Shown: positions 2,968-59,141 of the stretch, piece after piece | Numbering within the stretch: position 1 is the stretch's first letter | Layout of the letters: every line of letters starts with the position of its first letter | Origin: Polyangiaceae bacterium | GTDB lineage: Bacteria; Myxococcota_A; Polyangia; Polyangiales; Polyangiaceae | Direction: 5' to 3' | NCBI GenBank assembly: GCA_019637265.1 | Contig: JAHBVY010000003.1 | Coordinates: 62,001 to 126,000, forward strand | DNA length: 64,000 bases | Program-made: the position numbers and the translations under genes | The notes under the pieces: generated by a model | Databases searched by the model: none | What the model was told of the DNA's origin: nothing | The model's input: only the letters and a program-made list of their open reading frames with translations

Positions 2968-3055
2968 GGGTTTGGCATGGCGCTGCGCGCAGCGCCGCGC
3001 GGTGACTGTGGTGCCGCGAGAGGGCCTCGCGCGGCTACCAACCCCCAAACCCAAT
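2968..3055. repeat. Intergenic G-rich inverted element (copy E), bidirectional terminator candidate
   Basis: Between two convergent genes, GGGTTTGG at 2968-2975 is mirrored by CCAAACCC at 3045-3052. Inside lies a perfect 18-bp palindrome at 2979-2996 (GGCGCTGCGCGCAGCGCC). The right arm, read on the minus strand, carries the GGGTTTGGGGGTTGG core shared with other gaps in this window. The position suits a shared transcription terminator, but no U-tract is present. Confidence 0.5.
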
Positions 3056-20061: not shown

Positions 20062-22542
20062 CTAGCTCCGCTCGAGGAAGTTCGCGGTGACCACCCGCAC
20101 GCCGTAGCCGCCCCCGAAGTCGACCCGCACCTTCGGCGGGCTCCCGGGCGTGACCTGCTCCACCACGCCCTGGCCAAACCGTCGGTGCGACACGCGGCGC
20201 CCTTCTCGCAGCCAAGCGGCCACCGCCTCATCCTCCGGGAGGTCGCTGAAGGCCTCGCGATCCACGAAGCGGCCCTCCTCGGGCTCTTCGTGACCTTGGC
20301 GGGTACGCGGCGTGTCCATCGACGGTCGCGCTGACGTGCCCGACGACGCGCGCGCCGCACCCGGTGACCCTGAGGGCATAGCCCAGCTCGGCGTGCGCTG
20401 GGGGTGCATGCGCGCCCGGAGCGCGTTCAGGTTGCCGCGGCGCGGCCAGCTGGGCGCGCTCGCGCCGTAGTCGTCGTCGCCCGAGCCGCCGTCATAGTCA
20501 GAATAGTTGTCTGATGCGTGGCCGCCGTAGCCGTCCCCCCCGTAGCGCGCCATGGCGCGCCCGCTGCCGCGCTCCTTGATCGCCTCGCTAGGCATATCCG
20601 TGAGGAATTGACTCGGGGGGCGCGCCTGGGTGCGCCCGAACAGCATCCGGGTGGAGGCGTGGGTCACCGTGAGCCGCTGCCGCGCGCGGGTGAGGGCGAC
20701 GTAGGCCAGGCGCCGCTCCTCCTCCAAGTCGTCGCGATCGCCGTCGAGGCCGGCGTAGGGGAAGATGCCCTCCTCCATTCCCGTCAGGAAAACCGCGTCG
20801 AACTCCAGGCCCTTGGCGGCGTGCACGGTCATCATCACCACGCTCGGCGCCTCTGCCGCCAGGCCGTCCACGTCCGCGATGAGCGCCACGCGCTCGAGGT
20901 AGGCGGCGAGCGTCGGCTCTTCTCCCAGGCGCTCGGACTCCATCAAATACTCACGGATGGAGCCCACGGTCTCCCGCAGGTTCTCGAGGCGCGCGTCGGC
21001 CTCTGGTGTGTCGAGCCGCGTGAGCGCCTCCACGTAGCCGCTCTGCTCCAGCACGCGCTCCGCCAGCTCATCCGGGGGGAGGCGCGCGCTCTCGCTCCGG
21101 AGCTTCGCGATCAGCTCATGGAAGCCGGTCAGCGCCGTGTGGGCGCGCGCCGTGAGCGCCGCCTTGGCGCGCGGGCTACCGATGGCGTCATACAGGCTGA
21201 CGCTGTCCTCCCGCGCCAGCTGCATCAAAGCATCCAGCGTCTTGGCGCCGATGCTGCGCGCCGGGGTGTTCACGACGCGCAGCAGATCCGCGTCGCTCCG
21301 CGGGTTGAAGATGAGCCGCAGGTAGGCGAGCAGGTCCTTCACCTCGGCGCGGTCGAAGAACTTGGTGCCGCCCACCATCTGGTAGTTGATGTTGCGAGCG
21401 CGGAGCGCGTTCTCCAGCACGCGGGACTGCGCGTGGGTGCGGTAGAGGATCGCGATTTGATTCGCGGGGGTGCCGCGGGCGAGCTCATCGGCGACGCCGA
21501 GGGTGACGAGCCGCGCCTCCTCCGTCTCGTCGGTGGTGCCGTGGATCACCACCGGGTCCCCGGCCTGAGCCTCGGTGAACAGCCGCTTGGGCTCGCGCTG
21601 CGCGGCTCGCTCGATCACGCCGAGCGCCACCGCCACGATGTTGGCGCTGGAGCGGTAGTTCTGCTCCAGCTTGACCACCGTGGTGTCCTTGAAATCCTTG
21701 CGGAAACGTCGAATGTGGGCGACGTCCGCGCCGCGCCAGCTGTAGATCGACTGGTCGTCGTCCCCCACCACGCACAGGTTCTGGGTGCGCGCCGCGAGCG
21801 CCCGCACCAGGCGATATTGGATGTGGTTCGTGTCCTGGAACTCGTCCACCAGCACGTGATCGAAGCGCGCGCGGAGCTCCTCCCCAGCGAGGCCCTTGGA
21901 CTCGGCGAGCCGCGTGCCCAGCACCAACAGATCTTCGAAGTCCACGGCGTCGGCGGCGCGCAGCGCGCCCTGGTAGCCGGCGTAGAGCTCGATCATCGTC
22001 TCGTCGAAAGCGTCCGTCGGGGTCAGCTCGTGCGGCTCCAGTCCGCCCTGCTTCTTCCTCTGGATGCGCGTCAGCACCAGGCGCGGCGTGTACTCCCGAT
22101 CTGGCAGCCCAGCTGCCTTGATCAAGCGATTCAGCAGCGCGCGCTGATCGGCGTCGTCGTAGATGACGAAGTGCGACGAGAGCCCCGCGGCCTCGTGGTA
22201 GCGCCTGAGCAGCCGCACGCAGGTGGAGTGGAAGGTGCCCACCCACAGGTCGCGCGCGATGGCCTCCCCCGCCAAGGCGGTGAGCCGCTCCTTCAGCTCC
22301 CGCGCGGCTTTGTTCGTGAAGGTGACCGTCAGGATCCGATACGGAGGCACGCCCTGCGCCAGCAGGTTCGCCACCCGGTAGGTGATGACGCGCGTCTTCC
22401 CGCTGCCCGCCCCCGCGAACACGAGCAGCGGACCCGCGTCGTGGAGGACGGCGTCTCTCTGCGGCGCGTTGAGCTCACTCACGACGCGGTGCGATACCAC
22501 TTTCTGCCGCCGCACCGAAACGCCTCCAGTCGTTCCGTCCAT
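20062..22542 (-). CDS. pcrA: UvrD/PcrA-type DNA helicase
   Basis: This is a superfamily 1A 3'-5' helicase used in repair and replication restart. All motifs are present: Walker A FAGAGSGKTRVITYR, Walker B VDEFQDTNHIQYRLV, motif III VGDDDQSIYSWRGAD, motif IV LEQNYRSS, motif V MMTVHAAKGLEFDAVFLTGM and motif VI YVALTRARQRL. The C-terminal RFGQGVVEQVTPGSPPKVRVDF matches the RNA-polymerase-binding Tudor-like tail of PcrA/UvrD. A Gly/Asp/Tyr-rich linker (about residues 660-720) is unusually long. The ATG at 22542 gives 826 residues; a few residues around the start are uncertain because the frame is open further upstream. UvrD and PcrA cannot be told apart by eye. Confidence 0.95.
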   Translation of the reverse strand: MDGTTGGVSVRRQKVVSHRVVSELNAPQRDAVLHDAGPLLVFAGAGSGKTRVITYRVANLLAQGVPPYRILTVTFTNKAARELKERLTALAGEAIARDLWVGTFHSTCVRLLRRYHEAAGLSSHFVIYDDADQRALLNRLIKAAGLPDREYTPRLVLTRIQRKKQGGLEPHELTPTDAFDETMIELYAGYQGALRAADAVDFEDLLVLGTRLAESKGLAGEELRARFDHVLVDEFQDTNHIQYRLVRALAARTQNLCVVGDDDQSIYSWRGADVAHIRRFRKDFKDTTVVKLEQNYRSSANIVAVALGVIERAAQREPKRLFTEAQAGDPVVIHGTTDETEEARLVTLGVADELARGTPANQIAILYRTHAQSRVLENALRARNINYQMVGGTKFFDRAEVKDLLAYLRLIFNPRSDADLLRVVNTPARSIGAKTLDALMQLAREDSVSLYDAIGSPRAKAALTARAHTALTGFHELIAKLRSESARLPPDELAERVLEQSGYVEALTRLDTPEADARLENLRETVGSIREYLMESERLGEEPTLAAYLERVALIADVDGLAAEAPSVVMMTVHAAKGLEFDAVFLTGMEEGIFPYAGLDGDRDDLEEERRLAYVALTRARQRLTVTHASTRMLFGRTQARPPSQFLTDMPSEAIKERGSGRAMARYGGDGYGGHASDNYSDYDGGSGDDDYGASAPSWPRRGNLNALRARMHPQRTPSWAMPSGSPGAARASSGTSARPSMDTPRTRQGHEEPEEGRFVDREAFSDLPEDEAVAAWLREGRRVSHRRFGQGVVEQVTPGSPPKVRVDFGGGYGVRVVTANFLERS

Positions 22543-22636
22543 CGTCCTGTCGCATACGGATTTTCTGGGGGTGCACTCCCTCCTGAATGCCATACACGTC
22601 TCAATTGAAGCTGTTGGTGCAGCGGGCGGCGCTGGG

Positions 22637-22716
22637 GTCACGGTCCTCGACCTGATTCGAGGATCCGTGCGTCCTTGAAGAGCGCATCAAGCTCATGGGA
22701 GCCTTGAAGAGCCGGT
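22637..22716 (+). other. Conserved intergenic element, copy X (candidate small RNA or binding-site cluster)
   Basis: This is an 80-bp stretch matching 43225-43306 (inverted). Four blocks are identical: GTCACGGTCCTCGACCT, TCCGTGCG, CTTGAAGAGC and GCCTTGAAGAGCCGGT. Spacers of 10, 2 and 17-19 bp have diverged. CACGG and CCGTG can pair in both copies; in this copy the stem extends through TCCTCGA/TCGAGGA to about 12 pairs with one bulge. It lies between divergent genes, 91 bp before the ATG at 22807. Confidence 0.75.
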
Positions 22717-22806
22717 TGGACGGCACCTCGCTGCGCGAGACTTGCCGTGTGCGCTCGGCGTGCTTCATCGTGAGGCGTCGCGGTGGGCGTCCCCGCGGGA
22801 GCGCGC

Positions 22807-24000
22807 ATGGAGCCAACCGACCCACAGCAAGCGGCGCCCGTTTCACCCGAGCGCGAGGCGGACGCCTCGGGCCGCGTGTGGGTCCTGCTGTCGGGCCCGG
22901 CGTCGTCCCTCGCGCCGCCGACGTGCTGCGGCTGCTGTGGTGACCCACGGGCGGCTTGTCACCGCGTGGAGGCGCCGCGCGGCAGTAAAAGCCACGCGGA
23001 AACGATCACGGTGCCGCTGTGCGAGGCTTGCCTGGAGCACACCTCGGCCTCCGCGACGCGCGCGCTCAGCTTGGGTCTGGCGACGGCGCTGGTGGGGCTG
23101 GGGCTCGGCGCCGGGCTGCCGCTCGCGCTGGAGCAGGCGGCGGACGGGGGCTTCGTGCGACTCTCGGCGATCGGCTGGTTCTCGCGCTGGGGCCTGTTCT
23201 TGGTGCCGAGCCTCGTCACGCTCCTGATCGGGGCGCTCGGGCTGTGGCGCGAGGCGCGCCGCGTGGGGCGGCCGCCGACGCCGACCTGCGCGCGCTCCGT
23301 GTTGCTCGGGGAGCCGCTCATCGCTTGGCGCGGGGCGCGGGCGCTCTCCGTCGCCAGTCGACGCCTGGCGGAGGAGCTCGTCAGGTTGAGCCCCGGGCTA
23401 GCGCGGATCGAGGCGACCGAGCGCCGTCACGGCGCGCGGCGCTTGGCTACCTGGGCGTTCGGGGTCGCCTGGGTGCTCACGGCGCTCGTGAGCTTGGGGT
23501 CGTTCTACGCGCACCGGCCGCGGCTCCAGATCTTGAACTTGAGCGGTGAGTCGTTGGTGGTCGAGGTGGACGGCGAGCTGCTGCCGCCCATCATCCCCAC
23601 CAGCCAGGAGTCGCCGCACGCCGGGCTCGAGCTGCGGCTCGCCGCCGGGCGCCGGCAGCTCCGGGTGCTGCGGAGCGGGGAGGAGCTGGCGGCGCTCGAG
23701 GTCACCTTGCTCGGCGGCGCGCGGCACCTGTACGCGCCGCTCAGCGACGACCACTGCCTGTGGCTCGAGCGCGTGAGCTACGGCGGGGGGCGCGGGGCGA
23801 CGCCGCCGGGCATCGTGCGCACGCCGCTCTGGAACAGCCTCCAGTTTTGGACCTTCGTCGAGCCCATCGACGTGTGGCTGGCGCCGCCCCCCACCCCCAC
23901 GGAGACGCGCGCCGCGAGCAGCGGTGGCCAGGTGGTGGCGCTCCGTCAGGCGCGTTGTCAGGACGCGCCCGCCGCCGCTCGCCGCGAAGCGGCCGATTGA
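22807..24000 (+). CDS. Membrane protein with N-terminal double CxxC region
   Basis: I do not recognise a family. The 397-residue protein starts with a Pro/Glu-rich stretch. It then has a Cys-rich zinc-ribbon-like region (PTCCGCCGDPRAACH, then CEACLEH, residues about 40-85). Two close membrane helices follow (LSLGLATALVGLGLGAGLPL and WGLFLVPSLVTLLIGALGLW), and a third is near residue 215 (TWAFGVAWVLTALVSLGSFY). The C-terminal domain is probably outside the cytoplasm and beta-rich, with one Cys in DDHCLWLE. The ATG at 22807 is preferred over the GTG at 22783. The layout suggests a cytoplasmic metal-binding head and an extracytoplasmic sensor-like domain, but that is inference only. Confidence 0.75.
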   Translation: MEPTDPQQAAPVSPEREADASGRVWVLLSGPASSLAPPTCCGCCGDPRAACHRVEAPRGSKSHAETITVPLCEACLEHTSASATRALSLGLATALVGLGLGAGLPLALEQAADGGFVRLSAIGWFSRWGLFLVPSLVTLLIGALGLWREARRVGRPPTPTCARSVLLGEPLIAWRGARALSVASRRLAEELVRLSPGLARIEATERRHGARRLATWAFGVAWVLTALVSLGSFYAHRPRLQILNLSGESLVVEVDGELLPPIIPTSQESPHAGLELRLAAGRRQLRVLRSGEELAALEVTLLGGARHLYAPLSDDHCLWLERVSYGGGRGATPPGIVRTPLWNSLQFWTFVEPIDVWLAPPPTPTETRAASSGGQVVALRQARCQDAPAAARREAAD

Positions 24001-34930: not shown

Positions 34931-34959
34931 GGGTTTTGGGGGTTAGACGGCACCGCGCT
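34931..34959 (+). repeat. TTTTGGGGGTT intergenic element (copy A)
   Basis: TTTTGGGGGTTAGACGGC followed by ACCGCGCT. It matches copy B (55620-55648) over at least 22 bases with one G fewer there. It lies between convergent genes, 20 bp after one stop and touching the other. Confidence 0.65.
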
Positions 34960-36324
34960 CTACAGCGCCGCGAGCAGCTCATCACGTAAGCTGACGAGGC
35001 CGCGCCGAGCGCGCTCTAGCTCCGTGGGGCTCAGCGCCGAGGGCGCTTCGCCCATGTGGAGCGGCGGAGGCAAGCCGAGCTCGGCGCGCAGCTGCTCGAC
35101 GCCGCGCGGGTTACGGAACCAGTCTTCGTCGTGGGCCTCACGCAGGCTCGCCTCACGTTCGGCGCCGAGCAGCATGCCCGCGAAGCGAGCTGGCGTTTGG
35201 GTCCCGTAGCGTGGGGTGAGCGGCAGAAGCCGTGGATCGAGCGGCCGCAGGAAGGCGCGCGCCGTCAGCTCCTCGAACGAGGCATCGTTCGGTAGCCCGC
35301 GCTGGCCGGCCTCCTGATGGAGCAGCACGCGGAGCGCTTCGGTGCGCGAGGCGATGAGCCAGGTGATGGCGCTGGCGCGCCGGCTCCCCGCCTGGCGCGC
35401 GCCGGAGAGCCCCAGGCGCTGGCGCAAATACACGGGGCGGAGCGGCAGCGCTGCCAGCAGCGCACCCACCTCCCACCGCCGCGCCCCGTAAGGGTCATGG
35501 GCGACGACGAACGGCTGACTTTGCGGCGCCGCGGCGTCGCTCAGCGCCGCGCCGAGGCGCGCCAGGGCGCGCAGGTAACTGGCGCCGCCGAGCGCCTCGG
35601 GCAGCGGACCCGGGTCGAGCCGCAGCCCGCGGGTGAGCTCCGCGTCCGGCGCCAGGCTGAGCAAGCTGCTCGGGGTGAGCCGCGCGGGCCAAGGGTGATC
35701 TTCACGGCGATCGAGCGCTGCTTCGATCAGCGCGCTCAGGCGCCCCACACCGAGGCTCTCGAGCGCGCCGGCGCTGACGTCGAGCCACTCGCGAGCGAGC
35801 GCAGGAAGTTCTGGGAGCTGTCCTTCTGCCTCAGCCAAGGACGCGTGCCCCATGCGTGAGGCGACCTCACGGCGCCGCTCCCACAGCAGGCGCTCCGCGT
35901 CTCGGAGCGCCGACGTGTGCCGCGCGAGCTCCGCCAGTCGCCGCTCGCGGTAGAGGACGCGCTGCTCGGCGCCGCCCTCGGGTGCCAGCGTGAGCCGCCA
36001 CAGCGCCGCGAGCGAGAGCTCGGCGCCTTCGCTCGTCATCGGGTGCAGCGCGCTCCGGCGCGCCGCTTCGCGCGCGAGCAGCGCGCCCTGGTTGATGCGC
36101 TGCTCGGCGAGCCGGTACACCCAGCGGAGGAGCGGCGCGCGCAGGGGATCCTCCGGGTGCAGCGCTTGCACCTCATGGTATGTTTGCCTGCCTACGGCGC
36201 GGCGGTGGATCTCGAAGGCGAACAGCGGGCTCAGCTCGCCGCGCCGCAGGGCGCGCCGCCAGCCCTGCCAGGCGTGGGCCAGGGTGGCGAGGGTGCGGCT
36301 CAGCTCGATCGGGTTCAGGGACAT
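34960..36324 (-). CDS. Hypothetical protein, 454 aa
   Basis: I do not recognise this protein. It is helix-rich and high in Ala, Leu and Arg, without signal peptide or membrane helices, so it is probably cytoplasmic. It contains many conserved-looking aromatic and charged clusters (LRWVYRLAEQRINQGALLAREAA cut here to LRWVYRLAEQRINQG, then REAHDEDWFRNPRGVEQLR near the C-terminus). No metal-binding HExxH, P-loop or Rossmann motif is evident. The ATG at 36324 is supported by the helical start SLNPIELSRTLATLAHAW. It is convergent with the PorV-like gene and 69 bp downstream of the next gene's stop, in the same direction, so a two-gene operon with 36394-37428 is possible. Confidence 0.7.
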   Translation of the reverse strand: MSLNPIELSRTLATLAHAWQGWRRALRRGELSPLFAFEIHRRAVGRQTYHEVQALHPEDPLRAPLLRWVYRLAEQRINQGALLAREAARRSALHPMTSEGAELSLAALWRLTLAPEGGAEQRVLYRERRLAELARHTSALRDAERLLWERRREVASRMGHASLAEAEGQLPELPALAREWLDVSAGALESLGVGRLSALIEAALDRREDHPWPARLTPSSLLSLAPDAELTRGLRLDPGPLPEALGGASYLRALARLGAALSDAAAPQSQPFVVAHDPYGARRWEVGALLAALPLRPVYLRQRLGLSGARQAGSRRASAITWLIASRTEALRVLLHQEAGQRGLPNDASFEELTARAFLRPLDPRLLPLTPRYGTQTPARFAGMLLGAEREASLREAHDEDWFRNPRGVEQLRAELGLPPPLHMGEAPSALSPTELERARRGLVSLRDELLAAL

Positions 36325-41734: not shown

Positions 41735-42108
41735 TCGAGGGGGGAGCTTAGTCGGAGCGTGCCTCGCTTCAAGCTCCTCGCGACGGGTTTTTTGGGGGTT
41801 TGGCAGCGCGCTCTGAGCAGCCGGGCCAGGCGCTGCCCCCGTGGAAGGTCGCCGTGAGGCCTTGCGCGGCGCTTCGCTCGGCGAAGCGCCACCTTGCTCG
41901 TCGCTGGGGCGCCATGAAAAAGCGCCGTCCGGTTTCCCCTGGTCCGGCCGGCGGCAAACTGAGCGCCGCTCTAGGGCGGAACCTGCTCGCTTCGTGGGTG
42001 TCTGAGCCGGGATGCCCGCGCTGCGCCCGAGCTCATCGTCCCACCGGTGCGGCGGGCCCCTCTTCGGCGGGTTTCCGCGATAGGCTCGACGCTGAGGCTT
42101 GGTGGAGC
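41735..42108. promoter_or_regulatory. tRNA-Gln/sigma-factor intergenic region with copy F of the G-run element
   Basis: The 374-bp gap has no credible gene. At 41786-41807 it carries GGGTTTTTTGGGGGTTTGG followed by CAGCGCGCTC, close to copy A. The frame of the sigma gene is open through this region from 41800, but the encoded residues are Arg/Pro-rich and unlike the family. No clear promoter was found. Confidence 0.5.
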
Positions 42109-42717
42109 GTGCCCAACTCGGATGAGGCCAGCGAGCGCAGGTTCATCGAGCGCCTGCGCGCCCGAGACGAACGGGCGTTCAACGAGCTGGTGCAGCTGTA
42201 CCAGCGGCGCGTGTACGCGCTGGTGCTGCGCATGGTGGGGCGCCGCGACGAGGCGGACGACATGACCCAAGAGGTCTTCGTCCAGGTGTTCAAGGCGATC
42301 GGGCAGTTTCGCGGTGACTCGAAGATCAGCACCTGGATTTACCGCATCGCGGTCAACCTCTGTAAGAACCGCGTGATGTACCTGGCGCGTCGCAAGAGCG
42401 ACCGCCAGGCGGAGTACGAGCCGATGGCGGAGCGCTCACAGCTGGGCGGCGCCAAGGGCGTCACCGCGGGGGACGTCGCCCGACCTGACCACATGGTGGA
42501 GGGCCTCCAGATGGAGTACCTGGTCAAGCGCTCAATCGCTGAGATAGACGAGGACTTCCGTCAGGTGCTCGTCCTACGTGACGTGGAGGATCTCAGCTAC
42601 GAGGAGATCGCCGAGATCACCGGGCTGCCCCAAGGCACGGTGAAGAGCCGCATCCACCGCGCCCGCGCGATGCTGAAGGCGAAGGTGGAGGCGCGGCTAG
42701 GGGAGAAGATCCAATGA
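42109..42717 (+). CDS. ECF-type RNA polymerase sigma factor
   Basis: This is an alternative sigma factor of the RpoE/ECF group, 202 residues. Region 2 (about 25-95) holds FNELVQLYQRRVYALVLRMV, DEADDMTQEVFVQVFKAI and STWIYRIAVNLCKNRVMY. Region 4 (about 140-195) holds VLVLRDVEDLSYEEIAEITG and GTVKSRIHRARAMLKAKV, a helix-turn-helix. The start chosen is GTG at 42109, preceded by GGTGGAG at a good distance; it gives a normal ECF length. Its stop overlaps the ATG of the next gene (ATGA), a hallmark of sigma/anti-sigma pairs. The regulon and signal are unknown. Confidence 0.93.
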   Translation: MPNSDEASERRFIERLRARDERAFNELVQLYQRRVYALVLRMVGRRDEADDMTQEVFVQVFKAIGQFRGDSKISTWIYRIAVNLCKNRVMYLARRKSDRQAEYEPMAERSQLGGAKGVTAGDVARPDHMVEGLQMEYLVKRSIAEIDEDFRQVLVLRDVEDLSYEEIAEITGLPQGTVKSRIHRARAMLKAKVEARLGEKIQ

Positions 42718-43130
42718 GCGACGACAAGCGCGAGCCAGGCTCGCCCCAGGGCGCCGAGGAAGCTGACGAAGAGCGAGGGTCTGATAACCTGACGGATCGC
42801 GGCTCGGTCAGCTCACTGCCGGAGCTGAGCGACGAAGAGGAGGAGGAGCTCCGCCACTGGCTCCGCGATGCGCTCGATGACGAGGAGGGCGGCGCGGAGC
42901 TCGACGTGCTCGCGGGGGTGCAGCAGAAGCTCCGTGAGCGCAGCGGCGGGAAGTTCTACGCCGACGGCTGGAGCACCGCGAATGAGCAGCCCGTCGCCAC
43001 CTACCTCGTCACCAGCACCCTGATGCTGGTGGTGCTGTTGGTGATCTACGTGGTGTTGGGCCCCATCTCCGGCGTCGCCACCGAGGTGCCGCTGACCCCA
43101 GCGCCCGTCCACGTGGTCCCGGCGCCGTGA
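42714..43130 (+). CDS. Acidic single-pass membrane protein, putative anti-sigma partner
   Basis: This is a 138-residue protein. The N-terminal 75 residues are highly acidic and helical (ELSDEEEEELRHWLRDALDD). A single membrane helix (TYLVTSTLMLVVLLVIYVVL, about 96-115) follows, then a short Pro-rich outer tail. The start codon overlaps the sigma-factor stop, so synthesis is coupled. Position and topology suit an anti-sigma factor, but the zinc motif HxxxCxxC of common ZAS anti-sigmas is absent; there is no Cys at all. Function is therefore inferred from context only. Confidence 0.8.
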   Translation: MSDDKREPGSPQGAEEADEERGSDNLTDRGSVSSLPELSDEEEEELRHWLRDALDDEEGGAELDVLAGVQQKLRERSGGKFYADGWSTANEQPVATYLVTSTLMLVVLLVIYVVLGPISGVATEVPLTPAPVHVVPAP

Positions 43131-43179: not shown

Positions 43180-43224
43180 ACTTCCAGTGACTGCAGCGAC
43201 GGATGGCGCCGCGTGGCGCTACCC

Positions 43225-43306
43225 ACCGGCTCTTCAAGGCTTCAAAAACAACGACCAGTGCTCTTCAAGACCGCACGGAGACGCGCGTGAGGTCGAGGAC
43301 CGTGAC
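43225..43306 (-). other. Conserved intergenic element, copy Y
   Basis: On the minus strand this gives the same four blocks, in the same order, as 22637-22716, with identical first and second spacer lengths (10 and 2) and a third of 19 instead of 17. CACGG/CCGTG pairing is kept. In this orientation it lies downstream of the PP2C gene, whereas copy X precedes a gene, so it does not look like a fixed promoter element. Confidence 0.75.
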
Positions 43307-43370
43307 TCAGAGACGCACGGCGCGTGAGCGACGCCTGCTGTGCCTTACGTAGGGCTATCAGAGGGAGTCG

Positions 43371-43385
43371 AACCCCCAAAAAACC
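43371..43385 (-). repeat. TTTTTTGGGGGTT intergenic element (copy G)
   Basis: On the minus strand it reads GGTTTTTTGGGGGTT. A GCACCAGCGCGCTAC string, like the GC block of copy D, follows about 20 bp away on the plus strand. It lies between convergent genes. Confidence 0.45.
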
Positions 43386-43498: not shown

Positions 43499-44272
43499 CT
43501 ACTGGATCCAGCGGGCGAGGACGCAGGTGATGTTGTCGGGGCCGCCGTTCTCGTTGGCGGCTTCGATGAGGCGGTGGGTGGCGGTGGGGAGGTCCGGCGC
43601 CGACTCCACGATCTCGAGGATTTGTTCGTCGGTGATGGGGCCGCACAGGCCGTCGCTGCAGAGCAGCATGGTGTCCCCCGCCTGGGGGCGCTCGAAGCGG
43701 GTGTCCACCTTGACGGTGTCCTTCATCCCCAGCGCGCGCACGATCACGTTCTTGTGTGGAAAATTCGCGATCTCTTCGGGGGTGAGCTGCTTCATCTTCT
43801 TGTAGTCGTTCAGCAGCGAGTGATCTTCCGTCAGCTGCTCGATCTTCCCGTCGCGGATGCGGTAGCAGCGGCTGTCCCCCACGTGCGCCACGTAGACGCC
43901 ATCTTCCACGGCGAACAGCGTGGCCAGCGTGGTGCCCATGCCGCGCTGCTTGGCGTTGCGGTGCGAGTTCTCGAAGATGCGGAGGTTCGAGAGCTTGATG
44001 CCGGTGATCAGCCGGTTCTCCTCGTAGCCCTTGGTGCGATCCATTTTGTAGGGCCAGGTGCGCTCCGGGTCGTCCGCGGTGGCGGCGAAGAACTCCGCCA
44101 TGGTGTCCACCGCCATCTTGGAGGCGACCTCACCCGACGCGTGACCACCCATCCCATCCGCGACGATGTAGAGGCCGTACTCCGCGAAGATGGCGAAGTT
44201 GTCCTCGTTGTGGGCGCGCTTGCGCCCCACGTCCGTTTCGCCGGCGACCTCGATGCGTAAGGGCTGTGACAC
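43499..44272 (-). CDS. PP2C-family protein Ser/Thr phosphatase
   Basis: This is a Stp/PrpC-type metal-dependent phosphatase, 257 residues, that removes phosphate from Ser/Thr and so opposes Hanks-type kinases. All motifs are present: KRAHNEDNFAIF, VADGMGGHASGEVAS, GMGTTLATLFA, VAHVGDSRCYRI, LLCSDGLCGPI and the final GGPDNITCVLARW, providing the metal-binding Asp residues. It is soluble, with no extra domain. The ATG at 44272 starts a natural N-terminus. It is the only phosphatase seen next to a window with two large kinases, so it could act on either, but no operon link exists. It is convergent with the ECF sigma operon. Confidence 0.95.
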   Translation of the reverse strand: MSQPLRIEVAGETDVGRKRAHNEDNFAIFAEYGLYIVADGMGGHASGEVASKMAVDTMAEFFAATADDPERTWPYKMDRTKGYEENRLITGIKLSNLRIFENSHRNAKQRGMGTTLATLFAVEDGVYVAHVGDSRCYRIRDGKIEQLTEDHSLLNDYKKMKQLTPEEIANFPHKNVIVRALGMKDTVKVDTRFERPQAGDTMLLCSDGLCGPITDEQILEIVESAPDLPTATHRLIEAANENGGPDNITCVLARWIQ

Positions 44273-46642: not shown

Positions 46643-46711
46643 GGCGGCGCTAAGCACCACCACTTTCTCGGGGAGTCAAGCGGCGCGCGAGCGCTTCGCC
46701 GTTCGGTGAGA

Positions 46712-46730
46712 TGCCAAACCCCCCAACCCC
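46712..46730 (-). repeat. GGGGTTGGGGGGTTTGGCA intergenic element (copy H)
   Basis: Minus-strand reading of the rpiA/glycosidase gap. The GGGGGTTTGGCA core is shared with copies F and I. Confidence 0.45.
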
Positions 46731-55619: not shown

Positions 55620-55648
55620 TCGTTTTGGGGTTAGACGGCACCGCGGTG
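55620..55648 (+). repeat. TTTTGGGGTTAGACGGCACC intergenic element (copy B)
   Basis: Nearly identical to copy A (34931-34959) with one G fewer; the GGCACCGCG block is kept. It lies 39 bp after the exporter operon. Confidence 0.65.
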
Positions 55649-59089: not shown

Positions 59090-59124
59090 GGAGCACTGGG
59101 CGCCGCTTCAGCGCGAGTAGCGAC

Positions 59125-59137
59125 CTGCCAAACCCCC
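59125..59137 (-). repeat. GGGGGTTTGGCAG intergenic element (copy I)
   Basis: Minus-strand core identical to that in copy F at 41795-41807. It lies between convergent lipoprotein genes, just before the hairpin at 59142. Confidence 0.45.
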
Positions 59138-59141
59138 TGAT

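Follow-up and report, generated by a model that had tools for sequence, protein, structure and literature searches.

Two stretches of the 64,000-nucleotide window, that is, of the whole stretch of DNA that was analysed, share four blocks of identical sequence, which raises the question of what these stretches are and how they came to resemble each other. The preliminary description had reported identical blocks of 17, 8, 10 and 16 bp, separated by spacers of 10/10, 2/2 and 17/19 bp, and this pattern was confirmed at both positions. A BLAST comparison of the second stretch (copy 2) with the genome detected the first (copy 1) at E = 8e-9, with 75% over 83 bp, as well as 42 more matches elsewhere, and the likeness of the two copies is therefore not random. 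Within the window the exact sequence GTCACGGTCCTCGACCT occurs at the two block sites only. As the analysis presented below indicates, both stretches are copies of a dispersed, parasitic, non-coding insert family with a unit length of about 150 bp. The boundaries given previously were too narrow and enclose only the right half of the element: an alignment of the first 30 genomic matches revealed a common left end, GGGGGT(T/G)CACTCCCTCC or GGGGGTTCGACTCCCTC, approximately 65 bp upstream of the earlier start. This left end, of the type GGGGGT(T/G)CACTCCC, starts at position 22572 in copy 1 and at position 43372 on the minus strand in copy 2.

Copy 1 is located on the plus strand and comprises an insert at 22572..22713 (C15:84566-84725, 104 bits), which extends from TGCACTCCCTCC to GAAGAGCC with a GG^TT junction at its end. 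It is preceded by the G/T-rich head of a target short repeat (ATTTTCTGGGGG, 22560..22571), which belongs to a head class common to the short repeats, and followed by the corresponding tail of type A (GGTTGGACGGCACCTCG, 22714..22730). The insert harbors the central invariant block GTCACGGTCCTCGACCT with the dyad GGTC-N3-GACC at 22637..22653 and the direct repeat CTTGAAGAGC, first at 22674..22683 and for the second time at the right end at 22703..22712. Copy 2, on the minus strand, consists of the G/T-rich head GGTTTTTTGGGGG (43373..43385), an insert at 43228..43372 (C15:105221-105377, 90 bits) that extends from TTCGACTCCCTC to GAAGAGCC and carries the left end of the TTCGACTCC subfamily, and a tail (GGTGGGTAGCGCC, 43213..43227) that is E-like by comparison with the E consensus. 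In line with the earlier description, copy 1 lies in a divergent gap, between a gene for a UvrD-type helicase (20062-22515, minus) and an ORF (22807-24000, plus), and copy 2 in a convergent gap, between an ORF (42714-43130, plus) and a gene for a PP2C phosphatase (43499-44272, minus). The element is thus not tied to one gene side, and the view that a plain promoter is unlikely was upheld. The region adjoining copy 2 (42109-43130) encodes a sigma-70-family (ECF-like) factor. The ORF after it, which overlaps its gene, has 138 aa and no Pfam match and is possibly the anti-sigma partner of this factor.

A sequence-only model built from 51 copies identified 62 near-full-length copies scoring 62-128 bits in the 5.7-Mb genome, the next match reaching 42 bits. 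The underlying assembly is a single one, in 21 contigs and 98.5% complete. Likewise, a profile derived from 30 copies yielded 29 full copies in the 1.97-Mb contig C1, the weakest of which scores 76 bits and the next match 34 bits. All 29 are intergenic, compared with 14.5% of random points, as judged by a home-made simple gene finder based on codon usage. Throughout the family the blocks are 90-95% identical and the adjoining spacers 50-65%, so that the claim of conserved blocks between variable spacers holds across further copies. Internally, the blocks comprise the GGTC-N3-GACC dyad and two TTGAAGAGC direct repeats about 30 bp apart; that these are protein-binding sites is inferred and uncertain. 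Moreover, some clades consist of inserts that occupy unrelated loci and yet are nearly identical over their whole length, including the spacers.

These features bear on the possibility that the blocks form a host regulatory or chromosome-structure module under selection, the copies being old and their likeness due to protein binding and not to recent copying. The contrast between blocks and spacers, the dyad and direct-repeat anatomy, and the exclusively intergenic position of the C1 copies are in favor of such a module. However, the near-identity of whole inserts at unrelated loci indicates recent copying, and the orientation of neighboring genes and the type of gap around the C1 copies follow no consistent rule; we consider this reading improbable. 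The orientation of the insert with respect to replication does not switch where the GC skew changes sign.

A small-RNA family, one of the three candidates named in the preliminary description, would likewise be compatible with conserved intergenic blocks in two or more copies. However, the 51-copy alignment folds to only -3.2 kcal/mol with a two-sided change in 1 of 11 pairs and offers no consensus structure, and no covariation was found. In addition, the window sites give no Rfam match, and the occurrence of the element is bound to one point of another repeat, as described below. A structured small-RNA gene family is hence largely refuted. The proposed CACGG/CCGTG helix fared no better, since its positions pair in 81.5% of cells as compared with 81.1% after shuffling and two of its five pairs are broken in about half of the copies; the GGTC-N3-GACC dyad is nearly invariant and uninformative on pairing. 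A protein-coding remnant was rejected as well: any one reading frame is fully open in only 5-20 of the 51 copies, and indels between the blocks shift the frame. Among the three earlier candidates, the non-autonomous element comes closest.

The repeat in which the inserts occupy one point is a G-rich intergenic short repeat of about 27 bp. It consists of a head, G3-N2..4-G5, followed by TT and a family-specific tail, and a list of intergenic GGGGGTT sites shows GGG-TTT-GGGGG, GGG-TT-GGGGG and GGG-ATC-GGGGG to be common heads. The tails fall into the types A (TTGGACGGCACCGC), A2 (TTAGACGGCACC), B (TTGGACGGGTAGTC, with GATC heads), C (TTTGGCAGCGC), Cp (TTTGCCTG), D (TTCGCCCCCGC) and E (TTGGTAGCGCC), with others besides. 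In A and C, which are the two large classes, the information content is at background within about 27 bp. Contig C1 alone (1.97 Mb) contains 351 head sites of all types, and the sequence GGTTGGACGG, which forms the right end of many copies, occurs there more than 100 times without an insert; before it stands a G/T-rich head with GGGGG at its end. Uninterrupted short repeats are also present in the window, namely type A2 at 34935..34960 (GGGGGTTAGACGGCACCGCG) and 55623..55648 (GGGGTTAGACGGCACCGCGG) and type C at 41790..41815 (TTTTTTGGGGGTTTGGCAGCGCGCT), all on the plus strand, and type C at 46697..46727 (GGTTGGGGGGTTTGGCATCTC) and 59112..59140 (GATCAGGGGGTTTGGCAGGTCGCT) and type E at 3022..3050 (GGGTTTGGGGGTTGGTAGCCG), all on the minus strand. 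Judged by their sequence, the heads (window 22560-22571 and others; GG-TTT-GG-G-GG-TT(T)-GG and similar) have a pattern that could form two-tier G-quadruplexes with variable loops.

The short repeats are lineage-specific. A 17-mer representing one subtype, GGGTTGGACGGCACCGC, has 233 exact occurrences in the genome and none in 144 relatives. The sole other genome of the genus carries a version of its own, TTTGGGGGTT with AGGC, AGGA or GGGA after it, with 22 repeats of this type as compared with 184 here by the same counting. In that genome (G001, L180-L199) we also observed GGGTTTGGGGGTTAGGCGC about 20 times, several occurrences lying apparently within lipoprotein-like signal peptides, where the translation reads ..VWGLGAL..C and the codon TTA is used; this gives the impression that a related short repeat has moved into coding sequence. 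Contig C1 furthermore contains a separate palindromic family, GTAGGGGCGGGTTTGAAACCCGCCC, in about 40 gaps (L061-L159), which has a classical REP look, yet the genome has no Y1 transposase domain.

The insert splits the short repeat at GGGGG^TT, with the head on its left and the tail on its right, after GAAGAGC(C/T). Its orientation relative to the short repeat is fixed, and all full copies share one exact insertion point. The only exceptions to the arrangement of head and tail are internal units of one tandem array (C1:948168-948659, L049), which consists of about three head-to-tail units and one partial unit without a head or tail between them and whose unit junction reads GAAGAGCCGG^TGCACTCCC. 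At filled sites, the tails are A, A2, B, D, E-like, C-like or unclassified. Head and tail correspond to each other across the insert: GATC heads were paired with B tails six times and with an A tail once, and other heads with B tails never and with A tails 31 times (p = 2.5e-6). The same pairing of GATC head and B tail is found in uninterrupted sites (p = 2e-5). The flank statistics cover contig C1 and the loci retrieved through matches to the element. Taken alone, this pairing could also result from co-amplification of head, insert and tail, because the insert lineages also follow the tail type.

Two further observations argue against such a joint movement. The heads differ within a clade of seven near-identical inserts. 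Moreover, three 5′-truncated inserts adjoin an intact empty site and are accompanied by target duplications of 51 bp with 49 identical positions (C1:1666822), 59 bp with 55 identical positions (C16:273952) and 56 bp aligned (C1:929563). In these cases the insert is preceded on its left by the head, the tail and about 40 bp of unique flank, and the tail and flank follow again to its right, starting from GG^TT. Conversely, the 3′-truncated insert at C12:173213 lies between two copies of the left flank and head of about 66 bp, and another one, upstream of C12:214184, is associated with a 25-bp duplication of left flank and head, so that the duplications at truncated inserts span 25-66 bp. Since near-identical inserts have differing heads and truncated inserts adjoin intact empty sites, we are confident that the inserts entered pre-existing short repeats, a conclusion that is well supported.

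Not all short repeats serve equally as targets. In C1, 22 sites of the types A, A2 and B are filled and 108 are empty, as compared with 0 filled and about 129 empty sites of the types C, Cp and G (p = 2e-7 for the contrast). In addition, inserts with the left end TTCGACTCC are followed by D, E-like or other tails, and those with T(T/G)CACTCC mostly by A and B (p = 1.5e-5). On a tree of the inserts, four tail labels require 10 changes as compared with 21.9 after shuffling, and insert lineages thus mostly keep to one tail type. Among the 62 rows of this tree, one locus appears twice and one near-duplicate pair appears once.

By which mechanism do new copies arise? We tentatively prefer, at somewhat below an even chance, replicative copying via template switching, guided by the shared head and by GGTT. 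In this process, which we infer from the observed insertion point, empty sites and truncations, synthesis at an empty site would switch its template to a filled site, either in the shared G-rich head or in GGTT and the tail, would copy the insert and would then return at GGTT. A full return would result in a clean insertion, and an early return through microhomology in a truncated insert with a target duplication. Template switching accounts for the position of the junction at the exact point where empty and filled sites diverge, as well as for the truncated copies with target duplications, for copy L031 with its imprecise return inside the head, and for the lineages that are faithful to their tail. 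It also fits the microhomology GCCGTTCA(C/T)GCG, which was found at the inner junction of C1:1666822 when read against the 51-copy alignment. Guidance by homology is further in keeping with the target choice in C1, where sites of the types A, A2 and B are partly filled and those of the types C, Cp and G are not. Against it stands the observation that the homology between donor and recipient amounts to only 10-27 bp at many sites, which is short for RecA-type conversion, and that, apart from GGTT, inserts in C-like, D and E-like tails have little in common with the A type. Furthermore, template switching does not explain the conservation of the internal blocks. When the inserts were examined for mosaic structure, the outcome varied with the window size (p from 1.0 to 0.006), and no consistent signal emerged. 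The truncated copies, for their part, could have arisen secondarily, through unequal recombination in which one sister chromosome carried a filled and the other an empty site, and not through the insertion itself.

The truncated copies also bear on an RNA-mediated process, in which an RNA copy would be reverse-transcribed into a nick at GG^TT by target-primed synthesis, giving rise to 5′-truncated copies with target duplications. Three such copies with duplications of 51-59 bp are indeed present, two of which begin exactly at GG^TT by local alignment. However, the two 3′-truncated copies with left-side duplications are unexpected if synthesis starts at the 3′-end, and a Pfam search of the 98.5%-complete genome revealed no reverse transcriptase domain (PF00078). 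We therefore rate this reading as very improbable. As regards group II introns, an Rfam search likewise revealed no intron in the window.

A further alternative, which we regard as possible though rather unlikely, invokes a site-specific recombinase, most plausibly one of the RNA-guided IS110/IS1111 type, that would recognize GGGGG^TT and mobilize the insert in trans as a mini-element. Elements of this group integrate from a circular form into repeats in a site- and orientation-specific manner and without added bases (PMC11208160, PMC11187229, PMC1525189). Correspondingly, a circle with joined ends would recombine at a short core (GG/GT/TT) into the repeat, always in the same direction and with no additional bases, and the expected circle junction would be GCCGG^TTCACTCCC, i.e. 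GCCGG^T(T/G)CACTCCC. This alternative explains the precision of insertion and the conserved ends, and it is in line with the fixed orientation, the absence of terminal inverted repeats and the lack of duplications at full-length copies. An indirect sign of a circular form is the junction GAAGAGCCGG^TGCACTCCC of the tandem array at C1:948168-948659, which resembles a circle junction. In addition, the genome encodes one IS110 gene (C15:10-258, NF033542 at 169 bits). However, this locus lies at the edge of contig C15 and no end there resembles the insert, the insert has no structured guide RNA, and neither an enzyme nor a guide could be tied to it. Moreover, an enzyme acting in trans would by itself fail to explain the tail-faithful lineages or the truncated copies with target duplications, for which template switching accounts.

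Other sources of mobility were sought in the genome by Pfam searches. The Y1 (RAYT-type) transposase domain PF01797 is absent, with positive controls, and no serine recombinase domain was found. There is no IntI integrase; PF00589 occurs in two genes only, which match best as XerD and XerC types and far below the IntI cut-off. These negative results cover the transposase and recombinase families searched, and a transposase of another family could be at work instead of replicative copying. With respect to an autonomous parent, C1 has no unpaired left or right end that would border a larger element, and the left-end-only matches at C16:219718 and C12:173213, as well as matches to the interior or the right part only, look like truncations and not like a larger element. 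The IS110 locus was rejected as a parent since its surroundings bear no resemblance to the insert ends. In that region (L200:1-1060) the IS110-family transposase gene runs off the end of contig C15, and a GC-rich palindrome (GGGCGCAGCATGCTGCGCCC) lies a short way upstream.

Outside this genome, no copies were found on plasmids and phages, and exact scans of genomic and viral contig collections returned isolated single matches or none. A BLAST search with the consensus in 58 relatives produced two short matches only. The possibility raised previously that there are no further copies does not apply to the genome, which has 62, and stands for the relatives, where none exceeds the background (115 searched with the model, 22-26 bits).

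The best model match in the same-genus genome (25.7 bits, hardly above chance matches in other relatives) begins in the T-arm of tRNA-Leu(UAG), and the left end of the insert resembles the T-arm and acceptor end of a tRNA. At this locus (L258:1444-1830), the tRNA-Leu(UAG) gene is followed by two tandem units of 150 bp, each starting with T-arm/acceptor sequence, and parts of the match are found again at a distance of 150 bp downstream, one of 65 bp (92%) and one of 43 bp (79%). The second unit is preceded by the junction AGCCGG, which is similar to the right end of the inserts. Left ends of the D lineage agree with the same-genus tRNA-Leu(UAG) end at up to 23 of 26 positions (two copies), the mean over all copies being 16.5 of 26. 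When the left end was removed, the similarity to the tRNA locus dropped to 4.4 bits, though at the expected place. A second match in the same-genus genome lies in a sensor-kinase-like coding region and is apparently due to chance. These similarities are suggestive only, and the idea that the ancestor of the insert may have been the 3′-end of a tRNA-Leu(UAG) gene with downstream DNA is a lead and not a result. The most far-reaching reading, which we rate as rather unlikely, is that the family represents a class of bacterial DNA parasite without genes, inverted ends or an enzyme of its own, derived from a tRNA 3′-end and spread by template switching of host replication between G-rich short repeats, or else a set of natural mini-elements moved by an RNA-guided IS110-type recombinase, with lineages that were retargeted to other types of repeat.

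How do the two kinds of repeat compare with known systems? The REP-targeting IS110/IS1111 elements (IS621, ISPa11, ISPpu9/10) similarly occupy one point of an abundant intergenic repeat in one orientation, without terminal inverted repeats or added bases and with a circle-like tandem junction. Unlike them, the insert is 150 bp long, no DEDD recombinase gene of its own, structured guide RNA or related autonomous element was found, and its target is G-rich and not a GTAG-type palindrome. With MITEs and further small mobile repeats of bacteria that are non-autonomous, such as RU-1/2/3, BOX and RUP, it shares the short, non-coding nature, the tens of copies, the intergenic location and the restriction to a species, whereas it is confined to a single point in another repeat. 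Unlike in MITEs, its ends, TTCACTCCCTCC on the left and GTTGAAGAGCC on the right, are not inverted copies of each other, and full-length inserts lack a duplication, only GGT(T) being common to target and insert; longer direct repeats occur only at truncated or tandem copies and in one minisatellite-like flank. Elements derived from tRNA 3′-ends are comparable in view of the left end, which is up to 23/26 identical to the same-genus tRNA-Leu(UAG) end. They differ in that the copies studied here are dispersed in G-rich repeats, that the similarity past the left end is weak, and that no copy was found at tRNA-Leu(UAG) here, a gene that lies outside the sequence recovered.

The short repeats, in turn, resemble REP/REPIN sequences in being intergenic, lineage-specific and present in hundreds of copies and several subfamilies, whereas they lack a conserved hairpin with a GTAG foot and the genome lacks a Y1 (RAYT-type) transposase domain. 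With the quadruplex-forming GGGNATC repeats of Xanthomonas and Nostoc (PMC4692102) they have in common the G-runs a few bases apart, the dispersed distribution and the over-representation in non-coding DNA, and some heads here contain GATCGGGG repeats; however, the short repeats are not tandem heptamers and have a specific tail after one GGGGGTT boundary, which is the boundary that the insert targets.

Many dispersed short repeats of bacteria spread by unexplained means, and the two nested layers described here, a G-rich repeat of about 27 bp in many hundreds of copies and an insert of about 150 bp at an exact point in 62 of them, bear on this question. The usual suspects, i.e. the domains of RAYT-type Y1 transposases, serine recombinases and reverse transcriptases, were not found in the genome that carries both layers. 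Since the genome contains empty forms next to filled ones, the origin of such repeats becomes open to testing.
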